A DNA stretch of 64,000 nt from Methylocystis sp. H62 (GTDB lineage Bacteria; Pseudomonadota; Alphaproteobacteria; Rhizobiales; Beijerinckiaceae), in the NCBI RefSeq assembly GCF_015709515.1, contig NZ_JADNQZ010000055.1:5650-69649 (forward strand). Direction: 5' to 3'. Each line of letters starts with the position of its first letter. Position 1 is the first letter of the stretch. Under the pieces are notes generated by a model, which searched no databases, was not told where the DNA came from, and saw only the letters and a program-made list of their open reading frames with translations. Both the position numbers and the translations under genes were made by a program. Positions 36,482-62,369 of the stretch are shown here, piece by piece.

Positions 36482-36657
36482 TCACCGGATGGCCTACACG
36501 AGTTGCGCTAAAAGGGCCAGCGGGCGGAGCCCCCCGCGATGCGCGTGGCGCCAATGCACGAGACGCCCGAAAAAATACCTGCGCTCGCCACGGCGCCGGA
36601 ACATCCCATGAAACGTCGGGTTGTTCTTCCGTCTAACGGTTCGACGGGAGGCGCGCA

Positions 36658-36906
36658 ATGCAAGCCAGGACGCGACAGCTCTTCGCCGGCGCATTCGGCT
36701 TGTCGCTGATCGGCGCCACGGCCGCCCTGGCGCAGTCCCCAGGATACTCTCCGGGCCCGCCCGGCTGGTATGGAAGGGCGCGTCCGCCCGCCTACGCGGG
36801 AGATTGCAAATTCCCCTATCCGCCGGGCTATCGTTACGATCTGAAAGACTGGCGCACCGGCTTCACCGATCGCGATTTTTCCTGTTACCGGCTCGATAGC
36901 GACTGA
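36658..36906 (+). CDS. Small secreted Pro/Gly/Tyr-rich protein
   Basis: An 82-residue protein with a clear signal peptide (residues ~8-25, LFAGAFGLSLIGATAALAQ). The mature part is rich in Pro, Gly and Tyr (YSPGPPGWYGR, DCKFPYPPGYRYDLKDW) and has two cysteines that could form one disulfide. GGGAGG lies eight bases before the ATG. I do not recognise the family. It stands between ftsY (minus) and the cysteine desulfurase gene (minus). Confidence 0.65.
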   Translation: MQARTRQLFAGAFGLSLIGATAALAQSPGYSPGPPGWYGRARPPAYAGDCKFPYPPGYRYDLKDWRTGFTDRDFSCYRLDSD

Positions 36907-36933
36907 AAGCAGCCACAGCTCGACGAACGCTGG

Positions 36934-39171
36934 CTAAAAGGCTCTCCCCGCCTGCAGCCGCAGCAGCGCAGTGACAAGCGCATCGACGTCCGCGCATGTG
37001 TTGTAGAAGGCCAGCGACGGGCGCACGGTGGCTTCGAGGCCGAAGCGGCGCAGAATCGGTTGCGCGCAGTGATGACCGGAGCGAACGGCGATCCCCTCGC
37101 GATCGAGCGCCTTGCCGACGTCTTGCGGGTCGTGTCCATCGAGCGTGAAGGAGAGCACCGAGGCTTTCTCCGGCGCCGTGCCGATGAGGGTCAGACCCGG
37201 AACGGTGGTCATCTTTTCGGTCGCATAGACGAGAAGATCGTGCTCGTAACGGGCGATCACCTCCATGCCGATGGCTTCGACATAGTCGAGCGCCGCGCCG
37301 AGACCGACGGCGTCGGCGATATTGCCCGTGCCGGCCTCGAAGCGCTCTGGCGGACCCTGATAGATCGTCTGTTCGAACGTGACGTCGGCGATCATATTGC
37401 CGCCGCCCTGCCACGGATCGAGATGTTCGAGCACGGCGTCCTTGCCGTAAACGACGCCGATGCCGGTCGGGCCGAACACCTTGTGGCCGGAGAAGACGAA
37501 GAAGTCGCAGCCGATCGATTGCACGTCGATCGGCATATGCGACACCGATTGCGCGCCGTCGACGAGCACGCAGGCGCCGTAGCGATGCGCGATCGCTGTG
37601 ATCTCCTGGACGGGCGTAATGGTGCCGAGCGCGTTCGAGACCTGCGAGACCGCGACGATCCGCGTCTTCGGATTCAGGAGCTTCTCATATTCCTCGAGAA
37701 TGAGCGCGCCGCGGTCGTCGACCGGCGCGACGCGCAGCTTCGCGCCTTTCTCGGAACACAGCATCTGCCACGGCACGATATTGGCGTGATGTTCGAGGTG
37801 TGAGACGACGATTTCATCGCCCTCGCGCACATTGCGCCGGCCCCAGCTTTGCGCGACGAGATTGACGCCCTCCGTCGCGCCGCGCACGAAGATGATGTCC
37901 TTGACGTTGGGCGCCTTCAGAAAGCGGCGGACTTTTTCGCGCGCTTCCTCATAGGCGTCGGTCGCGCGCGCCGCGAGCGTATGCGCGGCGCGATGGATGT
38001 TGGAGTTCTCATTCTCGTAGAAATAGGCGAGCCGGTCGATCACCGACTGCGGCTTTTGCGTCGTCGCGGCGTTGTCGAGCCAGATAAGCTGTCGTCCGTT
38101 GACGCTCTGGTTGAGGATGGGGAAGTCGCGCTTGACGCGATAGGGATCGAAGAGATGCCGCGTGGCGAGGGTTTTCTCGGGCTGGCGTCCCTGCCGAGGC
38201 GCCGCGTAGACGCCGTCGCCATAGGGCGCATGCGCCGCGCCAGGGATCGCGCCAGAGGGCGCGCGACCGCCGGCGCCTCCCGGAAACGCATGCGCAACCG
38301 TGTCATAGTCGCTGGCGCGGCGCGGCGTCGAAGATGGGCGCCCGCCGGCGCCCGGCGAGTGGGGCGCGCTATGCGCATGATCGGACGCGCCGCCGCCTTG
38401 GGCGAATTCCCCCGGATGCAGCGGATAGACGCCCTGCGTCGCGCCGCCTTGCGAGTGACGCGAGACGAGTTCGTCGCCACGCATTGCTCCGCTCGTCTGC
38501 TGCGGCGAGAAGGGGTCGGGATGGCCATATCCCGCGCCGGTTGACGGCGCCCGCGTTTCATAGCGTAAGGGCTCTGCGCGTCCAGGCGCCGGCGCTGTTG
38601 GAAGAAAATAATAGTCGCTCGCCGGTCGTGCGACCGCGTCGTTGTCGACGAGCGAGAACTCCTGCGCAAGGCGGCGCGTCGGCTCGCTGTAATCCAGTTC
38701 GCCAGGGATCGATGATGTCGCGCCGCCGAGCGAAGCGCCGGGCTGCGGAATGTCGGCGAGGCCCAACGGCCGCGTCGAGGAATGCAAGGTCTGCGGCGCC
38801 GAGGGCGCCGGGACATTCGGGGTCGGGACGACGGAAGGAATCGTCGTCGGCGGAAAGTCCATGGGACCAAGAGGCGCGCGCGCAGGCGCATGCGGGGCGA
38901 CGCTCGTCGCGATCGATGGCGCCGGAATATCGGTCAGACTGGGCGTCACGGCGGGCAAGGCGCCGGCAAGCGCCGGCGCACCGGATTGCTGCGTCACGGC
39001 GCCGGTCGTCGGTAGCGTCGCATGGGGCAGCGCGCCAAAGAAGGCGTTGGCCATCTGCGCGATGATCTGCGCGTCGGGCGCGGCGGCGTCATGATGCGTG
39101 AACGCCTCCTCGGACGGCGCGCCGTCTATGGGGAAGTCGACAAATTGCGGCGTCTGCGGCGCAGTCGGCAT
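36934..39171 (-). CDS. Cysteine desulfurase with encapsulin-targeting extension
   Basis: A 745-residue protein. Residues ~345-745 are a complete SufS-type, PLP-dependent cysteine desulfurase: WLDNAATTQKP, SHLEHHANIVPWQ, the PLP lysine in FSGHKVFGPTGIGV, and the catalytic Cys in RSGHHCAQPILRRFG. It removes sulfur from cysteine as persulfide. Residues 1-340 are low-complexity, rich in Pro, Ala, Gly and Ser, with short conserved-looking islands such as QMANAFFGALPH near residue 40. Such disordered N-terminal extensions load the desulfurase into family 2A encapsulins. The shell gene lies 55 bases upstream on the same strand. Confidence 0.9.
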   Translation of the reverse strand: MPTAPQTPQFVDFPIDGAPSEEAFTHHDAAAPDAQIIAQMANAFFGALPHATLPTTGAVTQQSGAPALAGALPAVTPSLTDIPAPSIATSVAPHAPARAPLGPMDFPPTTIPSVVPTPNVPAPSAPQTLHSSTRPLGLADIPQPGASLGGATSSIPGELDYSEPTRRLAQEFSLVDNDAVARPASDYYFLPTAPAPGRAEPLRYETRAPSTGAGYGHPDPFSPQQTSGAMRGDELVSRHSQGGATQGVYPLHPGEFAQGGGASDHAHSAPHSPGAGGRPSSTPRRASDYDTVAHAFPGGAGGRAPSGAIPGAAHAPYGDGVYAAPRQGRQPEKTLATRHLFDPYRVKRDFPILNQSVNGRQLIWLDNAATTQKPQSVIDRLAYFYENENSNIHRAAHTLAARATDAYEEAREKVRRFLKAPNVKDIIFVRGATEGVNLVAQSWGRRNVREGDEIVVSHLEHHANIVPWQMLCSEKGAKLRVAPVDDRGALILEEYEKLLNPKTRIVAVSQVSNALGTITPVQEITAIAHRYGACVLVDGAQSVSHMPIDVQSIGCDFFVFSGHKVFGPTGIGVVYGKDAVLEHLDPWQGGGNMIADVTFEQTIYQGPPERFEAGTGNIADAVGLGAALDYVEAIGMEVIARYEHDLLVYATEKMTTVPGLTLIGTAPEKASVLSFTLDGHDPQDVGKALDREGIAVRSGHHCAQPILRRFGLEATVRPSLAFYNTCADVDALVTALLRLQAGRAF

Positions 39172-39226
39172 ATGTGCACACCTCAGGAGGAAGAATCGGC
39201 GCGCTCAGCGCCGATCCCATAGGGAC

Positions 39227-40174
39227 TCACGCATATTCGTCGGGATATTTGTGATATTTGCCGACGTCGACGTCTTCGAGCACGCCGAGCGCGTCATGCG
39301 TCAGCACGGCCGCCGAGCAATAGAGCGAGATCAGATACGAGGCGATGGCCTTGCGATTGATTCCCATGAAACGCACCGACAGGCTCGGCGCGACTTCTCC
39401 TGGGACGCCCGGCTGAAACAGGCCGACGACGCCCTGTTTCTTCTCGCCGGTGCGCAGCAGCAGAATATTCGTCTTTCCCGCTTCATCGACATAGAGCTTG
39501 TCGCTTGGGATCAGCGGCAGGCCGCGCCAGGTGACGAAGGGCGAGCCGAACAGCGTCACGGTTGGCGGCGGCACGCCGCGACGCGTGCATTCGCGCCCGA
39601 AGGCCGCGATGGCGCGCGGATGAGCAAGAAAGAAGGCCGGCTCCTTCCAGACTTTGGCGATCAGGTCGTCGAGATCGTCGGGCTGCGGCGCGCCGGTGCG
39701 CGCGCTGAGCTTCATCGACGGATGCGCATTGGCGAGGAAGCCATATTCGGCATTGTTGATGAGTTCGGCTTCCTGCCTCTCCTTCACCTTTTCGGTGAGG
39801 AGCCGCACCTGCTCCTGAATCTGGTCGTAAGGATGATTGTAGAGATCCGAGACGCGCGTCTGCACGTCGAGGATCGTCGTCACCGCATTCATCGAATATT
39901 CGCGCGGCGCATCCTCGTAATCAACGAAGGTCTCCGGCAGGTCAGCGTCGCGGTCGCGCGCCGGACTGCATTGGACGTCGGCGTCGCTGAGCGCCGTCGC
40001 CTCCTTGACCCGGTTGAGACGATAGATGCCCGCTTCCACCGGCACCCAGGGCAAGAACGACACCAGCCAGCGCGGCGTGACGCCAGACCATTGCGGACGC
40101 GTCTTCGTCGCATTGGCGAGCTGACGGGCGGCCGACTCGCTCAATGTTCGGCGAACTTCAGGTTCTGCGGTCAT
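39227..40174 (-). CDS. Family 2A encapsulin shell protein (SrpI-like)
   Basis: A 315-residue HK97-fold nanocompartment protein. The N-terminal arm (TLSESAARQLANATKTRPQW, then SGVTPRWLVSFLPWVPVEAGIYRLN) and segments LPETFVDYEDAPREYSMN, YNHPYDQIQEQVRLL, NNAEYGFLANAHPSM and FGSPFVTWRGLPLIPSDKL match SrpI-type shells. These form T=1 icosahedra that enclose cysteine desulfurase. I chose the ATG at 40174, with GGAAAAGG upstream, over a longer frame to 40237. The desulfurase follows on the same strand and a serine acetyltransferase diverges. Cyanobacterial relatives are induced by sulfur starvation. Confidence 0.9.
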   Translation of the reverse strand: MTAEPEVRRTLSESAARQLANATKTRPQWSGVTPRWLVSFLPWVPVEAGIYRLNRVKEATALSDADVQCSPARDRDADLPETFVDYEDAPREYSMNAVTTILDVQTRVSDLYNHPYDQIQEQVRLLTEKVKERQEAELINNAEYGFLANAHPSMKLSARTGAPQPDDLDDLIAKVWKEPAFFLAHPRAIAAFGRECTRRGVPPPTVTLFGSPFVTWRGLPLIPSDKLYVDEAGKTNILLLRTGEKKQGVVGLFQPGVPGEVAPSLSVRFMGINRKAIASYLISLYCSAAVLTHDALGVLEDVDVGKYHKYPDEYA

Positions 40175-40235
40175 CAATCCTTTTCCCTCGACAAGATAGC
40201 CCCACGCGGCTCCACGCCATGACGCCGCTACTCGC

Positions 40236-40276
40236 ATACTATAGCTTGTCGATAGACTATACCTGTTTTATGGTCA
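40236..40276. promoter_or_regulatory. Divergent promoter/operator of the encapsulin locus
   Basis: ACTATA occurs twice as a direct repeat (40238-40243 and 40256-40261), within an AT-rich island of an otherwise GC-rich region. A sigma-70-like pair TTGTCG (40246-40251), 17 bases, TATGGT (40269-40274) points toward the serine acetyltransferase gene. The repeats overlap it and lie ~65 bases upstream of the encapsulin ATG, so one regulator could control both directions. Confidence 0.5.
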
Positions 40277-40295
40277 AGCCAGGGGTCGGGCCCCA

Positions 40296-41246
40296 TTGGC
40301 GAGCGAAAGCAAGATGACGATGCTGCGAGAGATTTTTTCGAAGGACCACGACATCGACGCGATCGTTTCCGCCTTGAGCGCGCTGCGCCGAACGTCGCAG
40401 GCGCAGCGTTACGGAAACGCCGCGCCGCCGCAGCTCCCGTCGAAATTCGTCATGGCGTCGATCGTCGAGGGGATTACGGCAGCGCTTTATCCCCGGCATT
40501 ATGGACCGCCCGAACTGCCCTTCGACAGCACGGACGAATTCATCGCGTCGACGCTAAAGACGTGCCTTGGGGGCCTTCGCGAACAGGTCCGGCGCGAGTT
40601 CGCGCTTTTTCCGAGCGACGCGCCGGACGAACCGACGCGGCTGCGCCCAACGGACGTCGTCGAAGCCTTCGCGCGTGCGATTCCGCGCGTGCGCACGCTG
40701 CTCGACGCCGACATCCGCGCGGCTTACGCCGGCGATCCGGCCGCGAAAAGCCTCGATGAGATTATATTCTGCTATCCCGGCGTCGCCGCCTTGATCAAAC
40801 ACCGGCTGGCGCATGAACTCTATCGACTCGGCGTTCCGATGCTGGCGCGCATCGTCGCGGAAATCGCGCATTCGCAGACCGGCATCGACATTCATCCGGG
40901 CGCCGAAATCGACCAGGGCTTCTTCATCGATCACGGCACCGGCGTCGTCATCGGCGAAACGGCGCGCATCGGCAAGAATGTGCGGCTCTATCAGGCGGTG
41001 ACGCTTGGCGCCAAGCGCTTCGATGTCGATGAAAACGGCGCGCTCGAGAAAGGCAAGCCGCGACATCCGATCCTCGAAGACGACGTCGTGATCTATGCCG
41101 GCGCGACGGTGCTCGGCCGCATCACCATCGGCCGCGGATCGACGATCGGCGGCAACGTCTGGCTCACGCACTCCATTCCGCCCGGCAGCAACATCACGCA
41201 GGCGAAAGCGCGGATCGAGCTCTTCGATCACGGCGCGGGAATTTGA
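40296..41246 (+). CDS. Serine O-acetyltransferase
   Basis: A ~316-residue serine acetyltransferase: a long N-terminal helical part (residues ~1-180), then left-handed beta-helix repeats with the catalytic His region (TGIDIHPGAEIDQGFFIDHGTGVVIGE) and TIGGNVWLTHSIPPG. It makes O-acetylserine, the carbon acceptor for cysteine synthesis. Homologues (SrpH type) accompany family 2A encapsulins with cysteine desulfurase. It starts at TTG 40296 or ATG 40314. Divergent from the encapsulin gene, with a strong terminator after it. Confidence 0.9.
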   Translation: MASESKMTMLREIFSKDHDIDAIVSALSALRRTSQAQRYGNAAPPQLPSKFVMASIVEGITAALYPRHYGPPELPFDSTDEFIASTLKTCLGGLREQVRREFALFPSDAPDEPTRLRPTDVVEAFARAIPRVRTLLDADIRAAYAGDPAAKSLDEIIFCYPGVAALIKHRLAHELYRLGVPMLARIVAEIAHSQTGIDIHPGAEIDQGFFIDHGTGVVIGETARIGKNVRLYQAVTLGAKRFDVDENGALEKGKPRHPILEDDVVIYAGATVLGRITIGRGSTIGGNVWLTHSIPPGSNITQAKARIELFDHGAGI

Positions 41247-41268
41247 TTGCGTGGGAGCTAAAGTAACC

Positions 41269-41297
41269 AAGCGGGCCGGCGTCCCGGCCCGCTTCCT
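41269..41297 (+). terminator. Terminator of the serine acetyltransferase gene
   Basis: An 11-bp perfect stem AAGCGGGCCGG/CCGGCCCGCTT (41269-41279 with 41284-41294), four-base loop, then CCTTCC. It lies 23 bases after the stop. Confidence 0.7.
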
Positions 41298-41321
41298 TCC
41301 TCATGAGGTCGATCGGGTGAA

Positions 41322-41376
41322 AGGCTTCCTCATCCTGAGCAGCGTGCGCCGCACGCGTCTCGAAGGACGAGGACGG
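41322..41376. repeat. Dispersed CCTCATCCTGAG...CTCGAAGGACGAGG repeat
   Basis: Reverse-oriented copy of the repeat seen at 19830-19900: CTTCCTCATCCTGAGC-AGCGTGCGCCGCACGCG-TCTCGAAGGACGAGG. The palindromic middle differs between copies while the ends are constant. Confidence 0.75.
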
Positions 41377-41383
41377 CCGTTAC

Positions 41384-41872
41384 TCACGCCGTCGCCTCGG
41401 CGCAGCCCTTCGCCATCGCCTCGCGGCCCGCCGCCGCGATCTCGTCGGGAGTCAGGTCGCGCATATGCGTCGCGATCGACCAGACATGGCCGAAAGGGTC
41501 GATCACCTGGCCGTAGCGGTCGCCCCAGAACATGTCGTCGACCGGCATTTTGACCGTCGCGCCGGCGGCGACGGCCTGTGCGAAGACGGCGTCGACATCG
41601 TCGACCATGAGATGAATGGTCACCGGCGAACCTTTCAGCGCCTTCGGACCGAGCGCGCCCCATTCCGGCATTTCGTCGACAAGCATCACGATTGAATCGC
41701 CGATCCTCACCGACGCATGCATCAGTTTTCCGTCGGGACCGGGAAGGCGCATCATCTCCTGCGCGCCGAAGGCCTTCTTATAAAATTCGATCGCGTCGGA
41801 AGCGCCTTCGCAGATGAGATGCGGCGTGATCGATCGCATGCATGGCGGAGTGTTCTCAGCTTTGGCGTTCAT
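41384..41872 (-). CDS. VOC-fold protein (PhnB/glyoxalase-like)
   Basis: A 162-residue vicinal-oxygen-chelate protein: ITPHLICEGASDAIEFYKKAFGAQEM, GKLMHASVRIGDSIVMLVDE and DRYGQVIDPFGHVWSIATH. It resembles the PhnB-like subgroup of uncertain activity, often bleomycin-resistance or glyoxalase-like. It overlaps the MarR gene by four bases (ATGA) and so is in one operon with it; the MarR protein probably regulates both. Confidence 0.85.
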   Translation of the reverse strand: MNAKAENTPPCMRSITPHLICEGASDAIEFYKKAFGAQEMMRLPGPDGKLMHASVRIGDSIVMLVDEMPEWGALGPKALKGSPVTIHLMVDDVDAVFAQAVAAGATVKMPVDDMFWGDRYGQVIDPFGHVWSIATHMRDLTPDEIAAAGREAMAKGCAEATA

Positions 41873-44012: not shown

Positions 44013-45005
44013 ATGATGGACTTAGTTGCTGGCGGGAGGGGCGCTGAGATGAGCCGCCAAAAATTCTCCGTTGCTTACAGCGGCAGAGATCGCCCGGATG
44101 ATCATTCCATAGATGCAGAATCGCTCGGTCCTGCCCTTGTGGCGTTCGGCCGCTTGATCCGAGAGGCGAACAGTGAATTCAATGATAAAAGAGCGGCCGC
44201 GAAGGTTTTGGTCGTCTCAGATTTCGAACATAAGTGCTTCAATATAAACTTTGAAGTAGTTATGAGTGTCTTTGAGCACGTAAAGAGCTTAATTGGCGAT
44301 GATAAAGTCTCGACCGCGAAAGACATTTTAGAATGGATTGGACTCGTAAAACCGATCGCACTCTCAAGCCTTACTTATCTCGGATACCTAAAATGGAAAA
44401 ATGGCAGGAAAGTCATTAATACCACCACGTTAGTGGATCAGGATAAGTCCGGGTTTGTGGGCGTTCAAGTAGAAGGTGAGCATAACCCAATCGTTATTAA
44501 TCAGCACGTTTACAATATGTCCATAAATCCTAAGGCTCTTAAAGCAACCCGCGACGCGCTTTCTCCTGTAGGAAGTGACGGGTTCGATAGCATTGATCTG
44601 CGCGACGAAGGCCATATAGTCGACAAGCTCGATCACAAAAAAATCGACGAGATACTTTCGTCATGCAACGCGGGGCTGGAAGAAATAGGAGAGGAATCCC
44701 CTGAAGTTGAAGAAACTAGCGCGTGGCTCAGCGTTTATTCACCCGTATATGATCTCAGTGCGGACAAATGGCGCTTTAAACTAGGGAAAGAGCCTGTTTA
44801 CGTCGATATTTCAGAAACAGAAATAGCAAGGGACGCGCTGGCAAGAGGCGGAGCATTGGCGGACGATGCTTATTTCGTAACACTTCAAGTCACGACTCCC
44901 AAGGATAAATCCGGCAAAATCGGTAAACAATCTTATAAGATTATTGAGGTGAGAAGATTTATCGGAGCGAAGCCTACCTCACAAGGCTCTCTATTCGACA
45001 AGTAA
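44013..45005 (+). CDS. Hypothetical protein, AT-rich and probably acquired
   Basis: A 330-residue soluble protein; initiation could be at ATG 44013, 44016 or 44049. I do not recognise a family. The first half holds SVAYSGRDRPDDHSIDAESLGPALVAFGRLIREANSEF and a short hydrophobic stretch IALSSLTYLGYLKW near residue 115. The second half has mixed beta-like content and ends QGSLFDK. Its base composition and codon use (AAA, ATA, AAT) differ strongly from flanking genes, like the ApeA gene, which suggests transfer. No partner gene is visible. Confidence 0.7.
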   Translation: MMDLVAGGRGAEMSRQKFSVAYSGRDRPDDHSIDAESLGPALVAFGRLIREANSEFNDKRAAAKVLVVSDFEHKCFNINFEVVMSVFEHVKSLIGDDKVSTAKDILEWIGLVKPIALSSLTYLGYLKWKNGRKVINTTTLVDQDKSGFVGVQVEGEHNPIVINQHVYNMSINPKALKATRDALSPVGSDGFDSIDLRDEGHIVDKLDHKKIDEILSSCNAGLEEIGEESPEVEETSAWLSVYSPVYDLSADKWRFKLGKEPVYVDISETEIARDALARGGALADDAYFVTLQVTTPKDKSGKIGKQSYKIIEVRRFIGAKPTSQGSLFDK

Positions 45006-45895: not shown

Positions 45896-46801
45896 GTGGC
45901 TAATGTGACATTCTCCTCACCCGTACTTGCGCGCGACATTACTGTCTATGCGATCGCCGGAGACCGCGGCACGATCCTGGCGGTGGCCAAGGCCCATAAA
46001 ATCCCCATTCCCTTCGACTGTCAGGACGGCGAATGCGGCTCCTGCCTCGTCGAGGTCACGCACCTCAGCCGCAACCCCAAATATGGAATCGCGCTGACCG
46101 AGAAGGAAAAGGAGATGTTGCGCCAGCTCGGCAAGATCACCAAAGCCGAGATCGACGCCGCCGAAGTCAACGACATGCCGCCGCGCTATCGCCTGGCGTG
46201 CCAATGTTTCGTGCGTAACGAAGACATCCTCGTCAAATTCGAAGGCGATCAAACGCTGCCCGCGCAAGGCGCCCATATCACCCATGCCGCGAAACGCTTC
46301 ACGGGCGGCATCGAGATCGCCACGGTGGAGGAATTTGTCGGATACGCCGTGAAGGTCGAAGAGGACGCGGCGATCCATTTCGACGAACTCGCGGGCATGA
46401 TGGAAAGCTGCGGCAACGCGGAAGTCGCCAAATTGTTTCGGCAACTCGCCGGCTTCTCACGCCTGCATCTCGCCGAGGCTAAAAAGCGCGCGGGATCGAT
46501 CGATCTGTCGGCGGTCATTCCGCCCGATTACGTGTGGCCAAATCATGCGACCCCGGAACGCACCGAAATTTGGGCCGCCGATCCGACGCTGTCGCGGCTC
46601 GACGGCTTGAAGGCCGCCCTGCAGGGCGAACGCCGAGGCTATGAGTTCTATCGGGCCGTCGCCGCCAAAACCAAATCGCCGGAGATCGAAGCGATGGCCA
46701 AGGAATTCGTCAAGGAAGAGGCCGAGCATGTCAAAATTCTCGAAGCCTGGATCACGCGCGAAGAATGGACGATAAAGAACCCGTCAAGCGCCAACGCTTG
46801 A
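45896..46801 (+). CDS. [2Fe-2S] ferredoxin-rubrerythrin fusion protein
   Basis: A 301-residue fusion. Residues ~1-120 are a plant-type ferredoxin with Cys42, Cys47, Cys50 and Cys102 as cluster ligands (DCQDGECGSCLVEV, LACQCF). Residues ~140-295 are a rubrerythrin-like four-helix diiron domain, with His191 in FSRLHLAEA, Glu245/249 in LQGERRGYEFY and EEAEH (274-278). The usual Glu three residues before the first His is Ser here. The start is GTG with AAAGGAG upstream. Electrons could pass from the cluster to the diiron site, for example to reduce peroxide. A related rubrerythrin gene follows. Confidence 0.85.
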   Translation: MANVTFSSPVLARDITVYAIAGDRGTILAVAKAHKIPIPFDCQDGECGSCLVEVTHLSRNPKYGIALTEKEKEMLRQLGKITKAEIDAAEVNDMPPRYRLACQCFVRNEDILVKFEGDQTLPAQGAHITHAAKRFTGGIEIATVEEFVGYAVKVEEDAAIHFDELAGMMESCGNAEVAKLFRQLAGFSRLHLAEAKKRAGSIDLSAVIPPDYVWPNHATPERTEIWAADPTLSRLDGLKAALQGERRGYEFYRAVAAKTKSPEIEAMAKEFVKEEAEHVKILEAWITREEWTIKNPSSANA

Positions 46802-57945: not shown

Positions 57946-59391
57946 TCAGTTATGGCTGCTTTCCGCCGCGCCAATAGGCGCGGCGCCCGTTTTCGGCGGT
58001 TGCAGCCAAGCGGCGCGATCGACGCCAAGCGCCTGCAGGCTGGCGCCTAAGGAGCGCGTCTCCGCTTCCTCGTAGAGCGCGAGTTCGTTGAAAACCGGCG
58101 CGCCGAGCGCGGCCTCGAAGGCGCGTCGGTCGGCGCGCTCGATCAATTCCTCTTCACCCCGCTCCCCAAGATTCGAGCGAAAGATCCCTGCCGCGCTGAC
58201 CGGCAGGAAATCCTCGTAAACAATCGGTTCGGCGCGCAGAGCGCCGGTCTGCAGAAGATCATTTAATGAGCCTGGAGAAATCGGATCCGTTGCCCTAGCG
58301 CTTGGATCGGCCGAATAATGGAAGAAGGCGAGCCTTTCGCGCCGCAGCGTCTCGTCATCATCGGGAAACGCCGCGAAGCGCCGCGCCAGCTCCTCGTTAA
58401 AGGCGAGCGCATTGGCGCCGTCTATCGCGAGCGGAACCGCAACCTGAGCTTCAGCGAGAAGCCTGTCGTAAAGCGCGCGCCCCTTGGCTGTCAGCGCCGC
58501 GCCTCTCTGCTCGATCTCGCCAAAACGCGCGGCATGCGCGCCGGTCACGCGCCGGCCGCCTTCCTCGATGAATTCCACAGGCTCGGGGCGCGCCTTGAAA
58601 CTCGTCTGGCGCAACAGGATCGGGCAGCGGCGACGCGGCGGGCCCTCGACAATCGCTTTCGGATTCATGCCGCGCGCCGCCATGGCGCTGTGCGCGGCGT
58701 CGATATCGAGCGCATGCAAGGTGAGATGGTTGATGTGCGGTCCTTTGAAACAGACGATGTCGGCGAGGAGCGGATGCGTGGCATGCAGCGTCCGGTACAC
58801 CGCCGATGAGACCGTCGCCTGCCCGTTCCAGCGAAAGATCTTCGCGGCTTCCAGGACAAATTCGCGCGGCTCTACGTCGTCGAACCCGCTTCTTTCGAAG
58901 AGATCGAGCAGGGCTCGGCAGCGCGGCGTAAAAATGTCGCGCTGCGCCAGAACCTTGGCGGCGATCTCGCGCGCCTGCGGATCGGCGATGAGATCCAGCC
59001 TGAGAAGAGAAGTAAAAATGCGAAAGGGAATAGTCCGCAATGCGCTCTCGCCAATCGGCCGGAATGCCGTCGAATGCACTGGAATTCCGGCGATTGACAG
59101 ATCGTAATAGCCGACGGGCGCCATTCCCATGATCGCAAAGAGCCGGCGCAGCATCGACAGTTCCTCGGCGGTTCCGACGCGAATTGCGCCATGGCGCTCA
59201 ACGTCGAGTCGCTCGAGTTCGTTGTTTTCCGCCAGGTGCCGCTTGAGTTGCGGCTTTTCGGCGAGCGTGTGGCGGTTTACCTCGGCGACGAGCGCCTTCA
59301 TCGCGCGATACTGCGGCGCTTCGGCCTGGTACATGTCCGAGACCGCCGACGCGAACATCGTCCGAATTGAGTCAGCGGAAGCGTCATTCAT
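57946..59391 (-). CDS. 2-oxoadipate dioxygenase/decarboxylase (DUF1338, HglS type)
   Basis: A 481-residue VOC-fold iron enzyme of the DUF1338 family. Typical segments are GYYDLSIAGIPVHSTAFRPIG, HINHLTLHALDID (metal-ligand His region), RPEPVEFIEEGGRRVTGAHAARFGEIEQRG and PIVYEDFLPVSAAGIFRSNLG. HglS converts 2-oxoadipate, O2 and Fe(II) to D-2-hydroxyglutarate and CO2 in lysine breakdown. The flanking ALDH7-type gene, which forms 2-aminoadipate, supports this. Same strand as ALDH and threonine-degradation genes. Confidence 0.88.
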   Translation of the reverse strand: MNDASADSIRTMFASAVSDMYQAEAPQYRAMKALVAEVNRHTLAEKPQLKRHLAENNELERLDVERHGAIRVGTAEELSMLRRLFAIMGMAPVGYYDLSIAGIPVHSTAFRPIGESALRTIPFRIFTSLLRLDLIADPQAREIAAKVLAQRDIFTPRCRALLDLFERSGFDDVEPREFVLEAAKIFRWNGQATVSSAVYRTLHATHPLLADIVCFKGPHINHLTLHALDIDAAHSAMAARGMNPKAIVEGPPRRRCPILLRQTSFKARPEPVEFIEEGGRRVTGAHAARFGEIEQRGAALTAKGRALYDRLLAEAQVAVPLAIDGANALAFNEELARRFAAFPDDDETLRRERLAFFHYSADPSARATDPISPGSLNDLLQTGALRAEPIVYEDFLPVSAAGIFRSNLGERGEEELIERADRRAFEAALGAPVFNELALYEEAETRSLGASLQALGVDRAAWLQPPKTGAAPIGAAESSHN

Positions 59392-59460
59392 TTTGTGACC
59401 TTCGCTACCATCGCGTATTTAATCTAACAGCGGCCGAAATCATGAGCGTAGCGTCACGCG

Positions 59461-60999
59461 CTAAACGTCAAGATCGAATTTGACGCCCTGCGCCAGCGGC
59501 AGTTCGCCTGAATAGTTAATCGTGTTGGTGGCGCGGCGCATATAGAACTTCCAGCAGTCCGACCCCGCTTCGCGGCCGCCGCCCGTGTCCTTCTCGCCGC
59601 CGAAGGCTCCGCCGATTTCGGCGCCGGAAGGTCCGATGTTCACATTGACGATGCCGCAATCCGATCCGTCGGCGGCCATGAAGCGCTCGGCTTCGTCCAG
59701 ACGCGCGGTGAAGATCGATGACGCAAGGCCATGTGCGACATCGTTATTGAGCGCGATCGCTTCATCGAGGCTGCGGAACTTCATTACATAAAGGATGGGC
59801 GCGAATGTCTCCCGCCGCACGACGTCCGTCTGCCCCGGCATTTCTACGAGCGCCGGGCGCACGTAGAACGCGTCCGGGAATGTCTCCGTCAGCACGCGTT
59901 CTCCGCCGAGGATGACGCCCCCTGCTGCGCGCGCTTCGTCGAGCGCGGCGCGCATCGCCGCATAGGCGTTCTGATCGATGAGCGGGCCGACAAGCGCGGC
60001 GCCGTCTCGGGGATCGCCGACCGCAACTGAGGCGTAGGCGCGTCGCAAGCGACCGAGAAGCTCGTCATAGACGTCTTCATGAACGATCAGCCGCCGCAGC
60101 GTCGTGCAGCGCTGGCCCGCCGTGCCCATGGCCGCGAAGGCGATCGCGCGAACGGCGAGATTAAGCGGCGCAGAAGCGCAAACGACGGCGGCGTTGTTGC
60201 CGCCAAGCTCCAGAATAGACTTCGCGAAACGGCCCGCGAGGCGCGGCGCGATGGCGCGCCCCATCGCCGTCGAACCGGTCGCTGAAACAAGTTGAATCCG
60301 CGCGTCGTCGACAAGCATTTCACCGATCTCGCGCCCGCCGACAAGCAGGGTTGAAAGCCCGTCCGGCGCCTCGCCGAAACGCGCCGCGGCGCGCTCGAAC
60401 AGCGCGTGAGTCGCGAGCGCCACAAGCGGCGTCTTTTCAGAGGGCTTCCAAACCAGCGTATTTCCGCAGACCAGCGCAAGCGCCGCGTTCCAGGCCCATA
60501 CGGCGACCGGGAAGTTGAAGCTGGTGATCACGCCGACGACGCCGAGCGGGCGCCAGGTCTCCATCATCCGGTGGCCTGGGCGCTCCGTGGCGATCGTCAA
60601 GCCATGGAGCTGACGCGAGAGCCCGACGGCGAAGTCGCAGATGTCGATCATCTCCTGGACTTCGCCGAGGCCCTCCGAGGTGATCTTGCCCGCTTCGATC
60701 GTGACAAGCTGCGCCAACTCGGTCTTGGCCGCCCTCAGCTCCTCGCCGAGCAGGCGCACGAACTCGCCCCGGCGGGGCGCCGGGACGTTGCGCCAGACGC
60801 AAAACGCATTCGCCGCGCGGGCGATGGCCTGATGCGCCTGCGCCGAATCCACGCTCTCGACGCGCGCGATGATCTCGCCAGTAATCGGCGAGCGGATCGT
60901 CACCGAGCCGCGCTCAAACGTCTGTGATTGGACCCCGAGCGTGCGCAGGAGGGCCGCAGCTTCCCCGGCGAGGCCAGGATCCAAAGCGCGCGCCTCCAT
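59461..60999 (-). CDS. L-2-aminoadipate-6-semialdehyde dehydrogenase (ALDH7/AmaB type)
   Basis: A 512-residue NAD-dependent aldehyde dehydrogenase. N-terminal EIIARVESVDSAQAHQAIARA, cofactor WNAALALVCGNTLVWKPSEKTP, catalytic Glu in LELGGNNAAVVC and catalytic Cys in GTAGQRCTTLRRLIVHEDVYDELL. This last segment and the C-terminal GEKDTGGGREAGSDCWKFYMRR are typical of ALDH7 enzymes that oxidise piperideine-6-carboxylate/aminoadipate semialdehyde from lysine. Divergent from the class III aminotransferase gene. Confidence 0.9.
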   Translation of the reverse strand: MEARALDPGLAGEAAALLRTLGVQSQTFERGSVTIRSPITGEIIARVESVDSAQAHQAIARAANAFCVWRNVPAPRRGEFVRLLGEELRAAKTELAQLVTIEAGKITSEGLGEVQEMIDICDFAVGLSRQLHGLTIATERPGHRMMETWRPLGVVGVITSFNFPVAVWAWNAALALVCGNTLVWKPSEKTPLVALATHALFERAAARFGEAPDGLSTLLVGGREIGEMLVDDARIQLVSATGSTAMGRAIAPRLAGRFAKSILELGGNNAAVVCASAPLNLAVRAIAFAAMGTAGQRCTTLRRLIVHEDVYDELLGRLRRAYASVAVGDPRDGAALVGPLIDQNAYAAMRAALDEARAAGGVILGGERVLTETFPDAFYVRPALVEMPGQTDVVRRETFAPILYVMKFRSLDEAIALNNDVAHGLASSIFTARLDEAERFMAADGSDCGIVNVNIGPSGAEIGGAFGGEKDTGGGREAGSDCWKFYMRRATNTINYSGELPLAQGVKFDLDV

Positions 61000-61054
61000 T
61001 TCAACTCCCGATGTTCGCGGCTATGCGCGGCTGGCGCCGCGCCCCGCATGTGCC

Positions 61055-61076
61055 CATGTAATGTAGTCAGTACATG
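61055..61076. promoter_or_regulatory. CATGTA-N10-TACATG palindrome between divergent genes
   Basis: A perfect 6-bp inverted repeat (61055-61060 with 61071-61076) in the gap between the ALDH and aminotransferase genes. The right arm covers an in-frame ATG at 61074, which argues against that codon as the start. A shared operator for divergent lysine-catabolic genes is likely. Confidence 0.55.
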
Positions 61077-61127
61077 ATCGTTCGCACGCATTTATCAAAT
61101 GCGAATGCGCGCCAAAAGCTCTCGGAT

Positions 61128-62369
61128 ATGGACAACTCGGCGTTCAGTAACCCGCACGTCGCCAGAAACTACGACCCGCTGCCCGTCGTGCTCACGCGGG
61201 GACAGGGCGCTTATCTGTGGGATGTCGAAGGCCGGCGTTACATCGACATGATGAGCGCCTATTCGGCTGTCAGCCTCGGTCACGCGCATCCCCGAATCCT
61301 TGCAAAGCTCGCTGAGCAGGCGCAGCGGCTCGCGGTGCCTTCCCGCGCCTTTTACAATGATCGGCTCGCGCCGTTTCTCGAGGAGCTCTGCACTCTGACA
61401 GGACTTGACGTCGCGCTGCCGATGAACACCGGCGCAGAGGCGGTTGAGACGGCGATCAAAGCGGCGCGCCGCTGGGCCAATCGCGTCAAGGGCGTCGCCG
61501 ACCCCGAGATTATCGTCGCCGCAGGCAATTTCCACGGCCGAACCACAACGATCATCAGCTTCTCCTCGGAGCGCGAATATCAAGACGGGTTTGGCCCCTT
61601 CATGCCGGGCTTTCGCGCCGCCCCGTTTGGCGATCTCGCGGCCTTCGAAGCCGCCATCACTCCGCGGACCGCCGCTATTCTCGTGGAGCCGATCCAGGGC
61701 GAGGCGGGCGTCATCGTGCCGCCGGACGGCTGGCTCGCGGGGCTACGCCGACTGTGCGACGAACGCGGCGTTTTGCTGCTGCTGGACGAAATCCAATCGG
61801 GTTTGGGGCGCAGCGGCGCCTGGTTCGCGTTTGAGCATGAGAATGTCCTTCCCGACGGCGTGACGCTGGGAAAGGCGCTCGGCGGCGGCGTTCTGCCCGT
61901 TTCCGCCTTCGTGGCGAAAAGCGAAGTGATGGATGTTTTCACGCCGGGCTCGCACGGATCGACCTTCGGCGGCAACGCTCTCGCCGCCGCCGTTGGACTA
62001 GAAGCGCTGCATGTCATTCGTGACGAACGGCTGGTCGAACGCAGCCAGGCGCTTGGCGCGAGAATGCTGCAACGGCTGCACGCGATGCGCGCCCCGGCGA
62101 TCAGTGAAGTTCGCGGGCGCGGCCTCTGGGCCGGCGTCGACATCGACCCGCGTTACGCGAGCGCGCGAGAAATCTGCGAAAGCCTGCTCGCCAAAGGCGT
62201 GCTGACGACCGCGACGCATCACACGGTCGTGCGCTTGGCGCCGCCCTTCGTCATTTCTCAAGACGACCTCGATCTTGCGCTCGACGCCGTCGAGGAGGCG
62301 ATCGTAAAGTTTCATGCGCCGCGCAATCTCCGTGGCGCCGCCGACGTCGGCCATTCACTTGAAGCGTAG
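61128..62369 (+). CDS. Class III aminotransferase (ornithine/lysine type)
   Basis: A ~413-residue PLP aminotransferase: NYDPLPVVLTRGQGAYLWDVEGRRYIDMMSAYSAVSLGH, NTGAEAVETAIKAARRW, EPIQGEAGVIVPP, LLDEIQSGLGR and the PLP lysine in TLGKALGGGVLPVSAF. It reads like RocD, ornithine delta-aminotransferase. Because it diverges from an ALDH7 gene and lies near an HglS gene, it may act on lysine (epsilon-amino group) in vivo; the sequence alone does not settle this. The ATG at 61128 (MDNSAFSNP) fits family length. Confidence 0.88.
   Translation: MDNSAFSNPHVARNYDPLPVVLTRGQGAYLWDVEGRRYIDMMSAYSAVSLGHAHPRILAKLAEQAQRLAVPSRAFYNDRLAPFLEELCTLTGLDVALPMNTGAEAVETAIKAARRWANRVKGVADPEIIVAAGNFHGRTTTIISFSSEREYQDGFGPFMPGFRAAPFGDLAAFEAAITPRTAAILVEPIQGEAGVIVPPDGWLAGLRRLCDERGVLLLLDEIQSGLGRSGAWFAFEHENVLPDGVTLGKALGGGVLPVSAFVAKSEVMDVFTPGSHGSTFGGNALAAAVGLEALHVIRDERLVERSQALGARMLQRLHAMRAPAISEVRGRGLWAGVDIDPRYASAREICESLLAKGVLTTATHHTVVRLAPPFVISQDDLDLALDAVEEAIVKFHAPRNLRGAADVGHSLEA

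Follow-up and report, generated by a model that had tools for sequence, protein, structure and literature searches.

A family 2A desulfurase encapsulin locus of Methylocystis sp. H62 and its divergent serine O-acetyltransferase gene

The stretch of DNA analysed here, the window, comprises 64,000 nucleotides of contig NZ_JADNQZ010000055.1 of Methylocystis sp. H62. Positions 36934 to 41246 of the window are occupied by three adjoining genes, encoding a family 2A encapsulin shell protein, its cysteine desulfurase cargo and a serine O-acetyltransferase (SAT). The locus is probably a desulfurase encapsulin in which the SAT and a cysteine synthase feed the encapsulated enzyme and sulfide ends up as sulfur stored in the shell. 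The shell and cargo genes are both on the minus strand and the cargo gene begins 55 bases after the shell stop codon, whereas the SAT gene is divergent from the shell gene and is on the plus strand. An earlier note on this DNA, made from its letters alone, had described a shell, a desulfurase and a SAT lying side by side, and all three genes were found where it had put them (Table 1). Related loci are referred to below by L numbers, L001 being the window locus.

Shell, cargo and acetyltransferase

The shell protein scores 509.9 bits against the family 2A shell model NF041162, which has a cut-off of 380. The cut-off of the family 2B model (400) is passed too, with 431.7 bits, but this score is lower and the match is split over two stretches. 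For this reason, the 2A/2B split was checked with a tree, built from a chosen subset of 87 rows, one of which (L087) is only 13% filled. The tree separates 29 2A shells from five 2B-type shells of the same bacterial family with 100/100 support. The window shell is nested in 2A, within Methylocystaceae, beside that of Methylocystis rosea, with which it shares 99% identity. The assignment to family 2A, which the earlier note had staked on such clustering, thus survived, and family 2B was dropped. Shell length is 315 - 336 residues, compared to 469 - 494 residues for the five shells of 2B type. A Pfam scan of the window protein gives PF19307 (SrpI-like) as the sole domain, and no cyclic-nucleotide-binding domain is inserted in the E-loop. 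A phage capsid was considered and dropped, because the dedicated encapsulin models score over their cut-offs and a metabolic cargo gene adjoins.

The best solved relatives of the shell are PDB 8t6r (456 bits) and SrpI of Synechococcus elongatus PCC 7942 (6x8m, 439.1 bits). In SrpI, G194 and P196 are pore-lining residues at the five-fold axis, and the three-fold axis has F262 and Y273 next to the cargo density (PMC8049743; this and the other papers named here are cited from excerpts). Their counterparts in the window protein, G200, P202, F269 and Y280, are invariant in all 81 aligned shells, and the counterpart of SrpI R192 is an arginine in 76 of them. By analogy with SrpI, the protein should form a T=1 shell of 60 subunits. 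The shell gene is listed from ATG 40237, but translation probably begins further downstream, at the ATG at 40174 (MTAEPEVRR, with AAGGA ahead of it). This codon, which gives a protein of 315 residues, is invariant in 13 of 13 aligned sequences.

The desulfurase scores 865.1 bits against NF041166, the model for family 2A encapsulin cargo cysteine desulfurases (cut-off 800), although the match spans only model positions 213 - 623 and leaves the N-terminal part of the model uncovered. Its Pfam domain is PF00266 (aminotransferase class V), and the best solved desulfurase is PDB 8kg1 with 630.1 bits. The SGHK and GHHCAQP motifs of the catalytic domain are presumably the sites of the pyridoxal phosphate lysine and the active-site cysteine, as in SufS. 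Another SufS, encoded on a different contig of the genome, has a higher score (593 bits compared to 573 for the cargo), and so the encapsulin copy need not be the housekeeping desulfurase. In a survey of gene neighbours covering the best 80 of at least 540 shell relatives in named genomes, a desulfurase accompanies the shell in 75 loci, and in the remaining five the sequence runs out at a contig end no more than ~0.9 kb past the shell stop.

The SAT scores 171 bits against NF041874, passing the cut-off of 150, and 169.5 bits against TIGR01172 (cysE), which is under the cut-off of 210.65. The identities proposed earlier for the cargo and for its SAT partner are therefore borne out by the dedicated models, and in the case of the desulfurase also by its position next to the shell gene. 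The SAT frame is also open from the listed TTG at 40296; the ATG taken as the probable start is in frame downstream of this TTG.

Table 1. Features of the locus and of related loci (window positions, unless another locus is named)
Feature	Position	Strand	Basis
Shell, family 2A encapsulin (SrpI-like), 315 residues from probable start	39227..40174	-	NF041162, PF19307, PDB matches, tree
Cargo, SufS-type cysteine desulfurase with 340-residue N-terminal extension	36934..39171	-	NF041166, PF00266, PDB 8kg1
Catalytic domain of cargo, SGHK at residue 561, GHHCAQP at 699-705	36934..38151	-	motif positions in cargo
Cargo motif 1, QMANAFFGALPH, residues 39-50	39022..39057	-	equivalent of published LARLANEFFS
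Proline-rich third island of cargo, residues 82-146, core TTIPSVVPTPN at 109-119	38734..38928	-	alignment of 23 extensions
Cargo motif 2, ASDYYFLPTAPA, residues 184-195	38587..38622	-	equivalent of published AASPYYFLDG
Spacer from shell to cargo, 55 bases, GC-rich inverted repeat	39172..39226	-	11-pair stem
Divergent promoter region between shell and SAT	40175..40313	.	alignment with relatives
SAT, probable start ATG 40314, C-terminus ...HGAGI	40314..41246	+	NF041874, C-terminal tail
Putative free-standing loading domain	L079:5881-7005, L077:5920-6930, L080:1653-2777, L082:3681-4811	all +	found on reading the loci

Linkage to cysteine synthesis and proposed function

The window SAT has the C-terminus HGAGI, and a terminal GI is shared by 27 of the 45 complete SATs of its subtype found in the 80 loci. 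In E. coli, a SAT C-terminus of this kind docks into cysteine synthase. A SAT was assigned to the window subtype at 250 bits or more to the window SAT, and other SATs were counted from 60 bits. In 52 loci the shell has wide flanks, with 3 kb or more on its 5' side and about 5 kb on its 3' side; a subtype SAT is present in 34 of them and another SAT in 9. The placement of the gene varies: across the 80 loci it is upstream and divergent from the shell in 13, upstream in the same direction in 22, downstream in the same direction in 10, and downstream and convergent in one. In Azospirillum, the SAT found downstream of the cargo gene has a SATase_N domain (scanned in L066). In a tree of SATs, the window subtype branches apart from the other three SATs of the window's genome and from most low-scoring ones. 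That the linked SATs form a single group is partly built in, because they were picked by score; the low-scoring, cut SATs of L059 and L106 also fall inside this group.

Shell and subtype SAT also occur together at the level of whole genomes. The bacterial family was surveyed in 199 genomes, a SAT being counted at E 1e-40 or better. The subtype was found in 32 of the 39 genomes with a 2A shell, compared to 11 of the 160 without one. Ten 2B-like genomes and one short fragment were counted as shell-less in this survey, and one 2A-like shell below the cut-off was counted as a shell. In the genus of the window, all seven shell-bearing genomes and none of the three shell-less ones carry the subtype. 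The same is seen further away, with 55 subtype SATs among the 59 loci that have a shell by threshold, out of 60 picked from the order of L079 (titled Methylococcaceae), and with 10 out of 11 shell loci in a phylum-wide draw. The shell model is over its cut-off in 48 of the 199 family genomes (ten 2B-like ones included), in 17 of 398 genomes drawn from the phylum (four 2B-like among these) and in 133 of 311 genomes of the order of L079. In a draw of 385 genomes from the class, three, including the window's own, have a match that passes the cut-off of the cargo model.

In 12 of the 46 loci with a subtype SAT, a cysteine synthase gene (counted from 300 bits upwards against the copy of L035) lies within 600 bases of the SAT gene and in line with it. 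No cysteine synthase at this threshold was found in the 34 loci without a subtype SAT. Weaker relatives occur among these loci; the one in L069 is nearest to cystathionine beta-synthase, but below the cut-off of that model. All six of the 12 SAT-adjacent proteins that were scanned pass TIGR01139. These neighbours strengthen the role in cysteine synthesis that had been ascribed to the SAT from its sequence.

These observations suggest a route by which the shell could be filled. The desulfurase would be drawn into the shell by its disordered N-terminal domain, chiefly by motif 1, judging by loading tests in S. elongatus. Cysteine would enter through the five-fold pore, as proposed for relatives, and would be split into alanine and sulfur, the latter being kept in the shell. 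The divergent SAT would make O-acetylserine, which cysteine synthase would join with sulfide to give cysteine. The gene linkage suggests that this cysteine goes to the encapsulated desulfurase and that the serine carbon exits as alanine. Serine is a central carbon carrier in the group of methane oxidisers to which Methylocystis belongs.

Several points weigh against this route. Nine of the 52 loci with wide flanks have no SAT, and the family survey contains, besides the 11 shell-less genomes that carry the subtype SAT, seven shell-bearing genomes that do not. A subtype SAT lies within 5 kb of the shell in 21 of 41 cases and is missing from this distance in the other 20, some of which are at contig ends. 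The sampled genomes are related, and hence the counts of shell and SAT are not independent events. The window SAT has no adjacent cysteine synthase gene, and the sole copy over the cut-off in the genome is on another contig. At the related locus on plasmid pOB3b1 of Methylosinus trichosporium OB3b (NZ_CP023738), no SAT is annotated in the surrounding 19 kb and none was found at 60 bits or more. Shell assembly, cargo loading and sulfur storage in Methylocystis are drawn from relatives, and sequence does not tell the filling of a store from its emptying.

The last point bears on the strongest of the alternatives, which was the emphasis of the earlier note. According to it, the SAT and cysteine synthase act once the store has been opened, and released sulfide is recaptured as cysteine under sulfur starvation. 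In its favour, the two enzymes form a sulfide-fixing step, and in S. elongatus both shell and cargo are induced by sulfate starvation (PMC8049743). Divergent transcription, however, lets the two units be regulated separately, and filling is favoured because the SAT and cysteine synthase make the cargo's own substrate. Recapture is a possibility to which we give clearly less credence than to filling. A relay instead of a store is unlikely. In such a relay, the persulfide would cross the shell and be handed to an acceptor in the cytosol, for example a rhodanese, for iron-sulfur clusters or thio-cofactors, and the SAT would supply the cysteine. Delivery to a carrier is one of the models put forward by the S. 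elongatus authors (PMC8049743), and rhodaneses are enriched neighbours in such operons (PMC8346489). Nevertheless, no rhodanese, SufE or SufU was named in an NCBIfam scan of six and a Pfam scan of nine window proteins, other neighbours being unscanned, and the genome has the other, higher-scoring SufS mentioned above. It is very improbable that the SAT is a passenger with no functional tie to the shell: the shells without a nearby subtype SAT (20 of 41) and the loci without any SAT (9 of 52) speak for this, but against it are the co-occurrence in the family and in the genus, the retention of the pair in four gene arrangements and the presence of another SAT type at the Azospirillum locus.

The likely reading remains a shell filled with sulfur from cysteine made for it. 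The locus places a desulfurase encapsulin in a well studied group of methane oxidisers, and the counts favour shells working with dedicated cysteine synthesis.

The N-terminal domain of the cargo

The N-terminal extension of the desulfurase is 340 residues long: the cargo model matches from residue 329, and the SufS and CsdA models match from residues 340 - 345. It is predicted to be disordered, judging by its proline- and alanine-rich composition rather than by a disorder program. The residues P, A, G, S, T and Q make up 63% of the extension compared to 37% of the catalytic part, whereas W, C, F, I, Y, V and L make up 18% and 33%, respectively. The earlier note had called this length unusual. 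The length itself was confirmed and is on the long side, but it does not stand apart: it ranks 67th among 76 complete cargo genes, in which extensions range from 116 to 429 residues with a median of 238.5 and reach 300 or more in 21; these lengths rest on rule-based start codons, and some, for example that of L031, are probably too long.

Two short motifs of the cargo, LARLANEFFS and AASPYYFLDG, are named in PMC8049743, and both have an equivalent in the window extension. The pattern of the first, AN.[FYLM][FY], occurs in 71 of the 76 extensions, against a mean of 0.48 in shuffled sequences. The second is represented by RPASDYYFLPT. Its YF motif (YF with a hydrophobic residue on either side) is present in 59 of the 76 extensions and in at least two copies in 19, with shuffle means of 0.6 and 0. 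There is one copy in the window extension and in those of L031, L032 and L034, and there are two in L035 - L040. The island near residue 40 that had been singled out in the note, QMANAFFGALPH, is therefore real and shared, but the case for an interesting variant is weakened, because this island matches the published LARLANEFFS motif and equally long tails are found elsewhere. The first 100 residues of the S. elongatus cargo, which we take to include motif 1, are enough for loading, albeit less well than the whole domain, whereas a piece with motif 2 is insufficient (PMC8049743).

A third, proline-rich island lies between the two motifs and is distinct from both of those named in the excerpts of that paper. 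In an alignment of 23 extensions, chosen from nearer relatives, the mean identity to the window is 0.60 for residues 81 - 100, 0.71 for residues 101 - 120 and 0.47 for each of the next two blocks. The two blocks that share motif 1 have 0.36 and 0.41, in a comparison by blocks that dilutes a short motif. The core pattern of the third island is present in 24 of the 76 extensions and in none of the shuffled sequences. Its carriers are Hyphomicrobiales by record title, except for L034, which is titled just Alphaproteobacteria. Within the 76 extensions, the core is missing, for example, from Rhodopseudomonas (L055 - L060), Methylocapsa (L061) and Hyphomicrobium (L101), which we take to belong to Hyphomicrobiales as well.

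In some Methylococcaceae-type loci a putative loading domain is encoded without an enzyme. L077, L079, L080 and L082 have such a gene in the gap from shell to cargo, or downstream of the shell where the contig ends, and L085 has a cut copy. The four whole copies have 342 - 380 codons. A sixth copy, in L252, has 386 codons on the minus strand and is the sole case among the 60 loci from the order of L079. Motif 1 and a pair of YF motifs are present in the whole copies, together with an FRPELVP stretch that resembles the pre-catalytic stretch of some cargos. The cargo next to four of the free-standing copies has a short extension of 116 - 153 residues. The L079 copy has no Pfam or NCBIfam match at E 0.001. 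Among 4627 frames of at least 100 codons, listed cargos excluded, motif 1 and a YF motif occur together only in the four whole copies, in the cut cargo of L033 and in the unlisted cargo of OB3b. A sequence search for the free-standing domain in 398 genomes of the phylum gave no match, although the same search missed the window's own genome. No second protein with this loading domain was found in the window's own genome, the only other match having E 0.013, and phage records searched with the first 205 cargo residues gave no match at E 1e-5.

The free-standing gene is possibly the loading domain alone, that is, a candidate non-enzymatic cargo, and all sampled cases come from one lineage. Taken together, the Methylocystis tail with its extra island, the putative second, non-catalytic cargo in six Methylococcaceae-type genomes, and the proposed dedicated supply of cysteine by SAT and cysteine synthase raise the tentative idea that the N-terminal domain is a multivalent scaffold, which would fill the shell and order the sulfur store. 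Although we regard this as rather doubtful, a family 2A shell would, if it were true, be a purpose-built sulfur granule with its own matrix protein. The free-standing gene offers a direct route to ask whether the disordered domain acts inside the shell beyond targeting. A fold was predicted, with 44 rows, for a fusion of the L032 shell with the first part of its cargo, read across two in-frame TGA codons. Its mean predicted local distance difference test (pLDDT) score is 44.8, with more than half of the shell below 50, and no contact was read from it.

Intergenic stretches, other genes and known systems

In the divergent promoter region, a block TTGACC ... TATAGTCTAT ... TATAGT is conserved, apart from small changes, between the window and its four nearest genomes (L031 - L034), and is a possible regulator site. 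A scan of positions 36500 - 41600 for the sigma-70 consensus gave no match. The inverted repeat between shell and cargo could set the ratio of the two proteins. The fold energy of the window spacer is not significant, with z-scores of -1.4 in one run and -0.88 in another. Stems of at least 9 pairs, changed in sequence, are present 3' of the shell gene in many Methylocystis, Methylosinus and Azospirillum loci. The 60 bases that follow the shell stop were compared across loci in 97 distinct versions, many of which are coding in part. A stem of at least 8 pairs is present in 56 of these versions, and 25 have a z-score below -2; the longest stem in shuffled stretches averages 6.2 pairs.

Elsewhere in the window, the gene at 44013 - 45005 matches the LAPAL-motif putative phage structural protein family with 141 bits (cut-off 60). 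The gene at 45896 - 46801 encodes, by Pfam, a 2Fe-2S ferredoxin domain fused to a rubrerythrin/ferritin-like domain, and has no NCBIfam match at E 1e-20. The products of 57946 - 62369 score over the cut-offs for the 2-oxoadipate dioxygenase/decarboxylase HglS, piperidine-6-carboxylate dehydrogenase and an ornithine-type transaminase, and these genes are perhaps a cluster for lysine breakdown.

Desulfurase encapsulins are referred to as sulfur stores in PMC12407261; literature searches did not turn up a primary paper reporting such storage. Searches for encapsulin together with methanotroph, Methylocystis or Methylococc gave, by title, no paper on a desulfurase encapsulin. The best solved relatives are 8t6r, which is named 'Major membrane protein I', and 8kg1, the chain of which has 426 residues and lacks the long extension.

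The best studied counterpart is the SrpI/CyD system of S. elongatus (family 2A; 6x8m, 6x8t; PMC8049743). The two shells are homologous over nearly their full length and share the pore and three-fold residues, and in both systems a SufS-type desulfurase with both N-terminal motifs adjoins the shell. In S. elongatus, the N-terminal domain is required for loading, and the kcat of the enzyme rises almost sevenfold on encapsulation (PMC8049743). This domain has 225 residues (PMC8049743), whereas the window extension has 340, and the window differs further by its third island and by the divergent SAT gene beside the shell.

The locus on the OB3b plasmid (L156), whose genes already carry family 2A shell and cargo annotations, has the same order of shell and cargo as the window and a catalytic part that is 85.1% identical. 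Unlike the window locus, it is plasmid-borne, a gene for an Rrf2-family regulator follows the cargo, and TonB receptor and ABC transporter genes surround it. Genes annotated as 'nitrogenase component 1' are also nearby.

The existing NCBIfam models, the OB3b annotation, the published motifs and the SAT accessory gene make the window locus one of an already described kind. PMC8346489 counts 1281 family 2A desulfurase operons, among whose accessory genes SAT and rhodanese show the strongest enrichment, and in the excerpts of that paper the combination of shell, desulfurase and SAT is the same as in the window, with no difference in gene content. Relative to the same excerpts, the SAT subtype, the cysteine synthase neighbours and the lineage-specific cargo island are additions.

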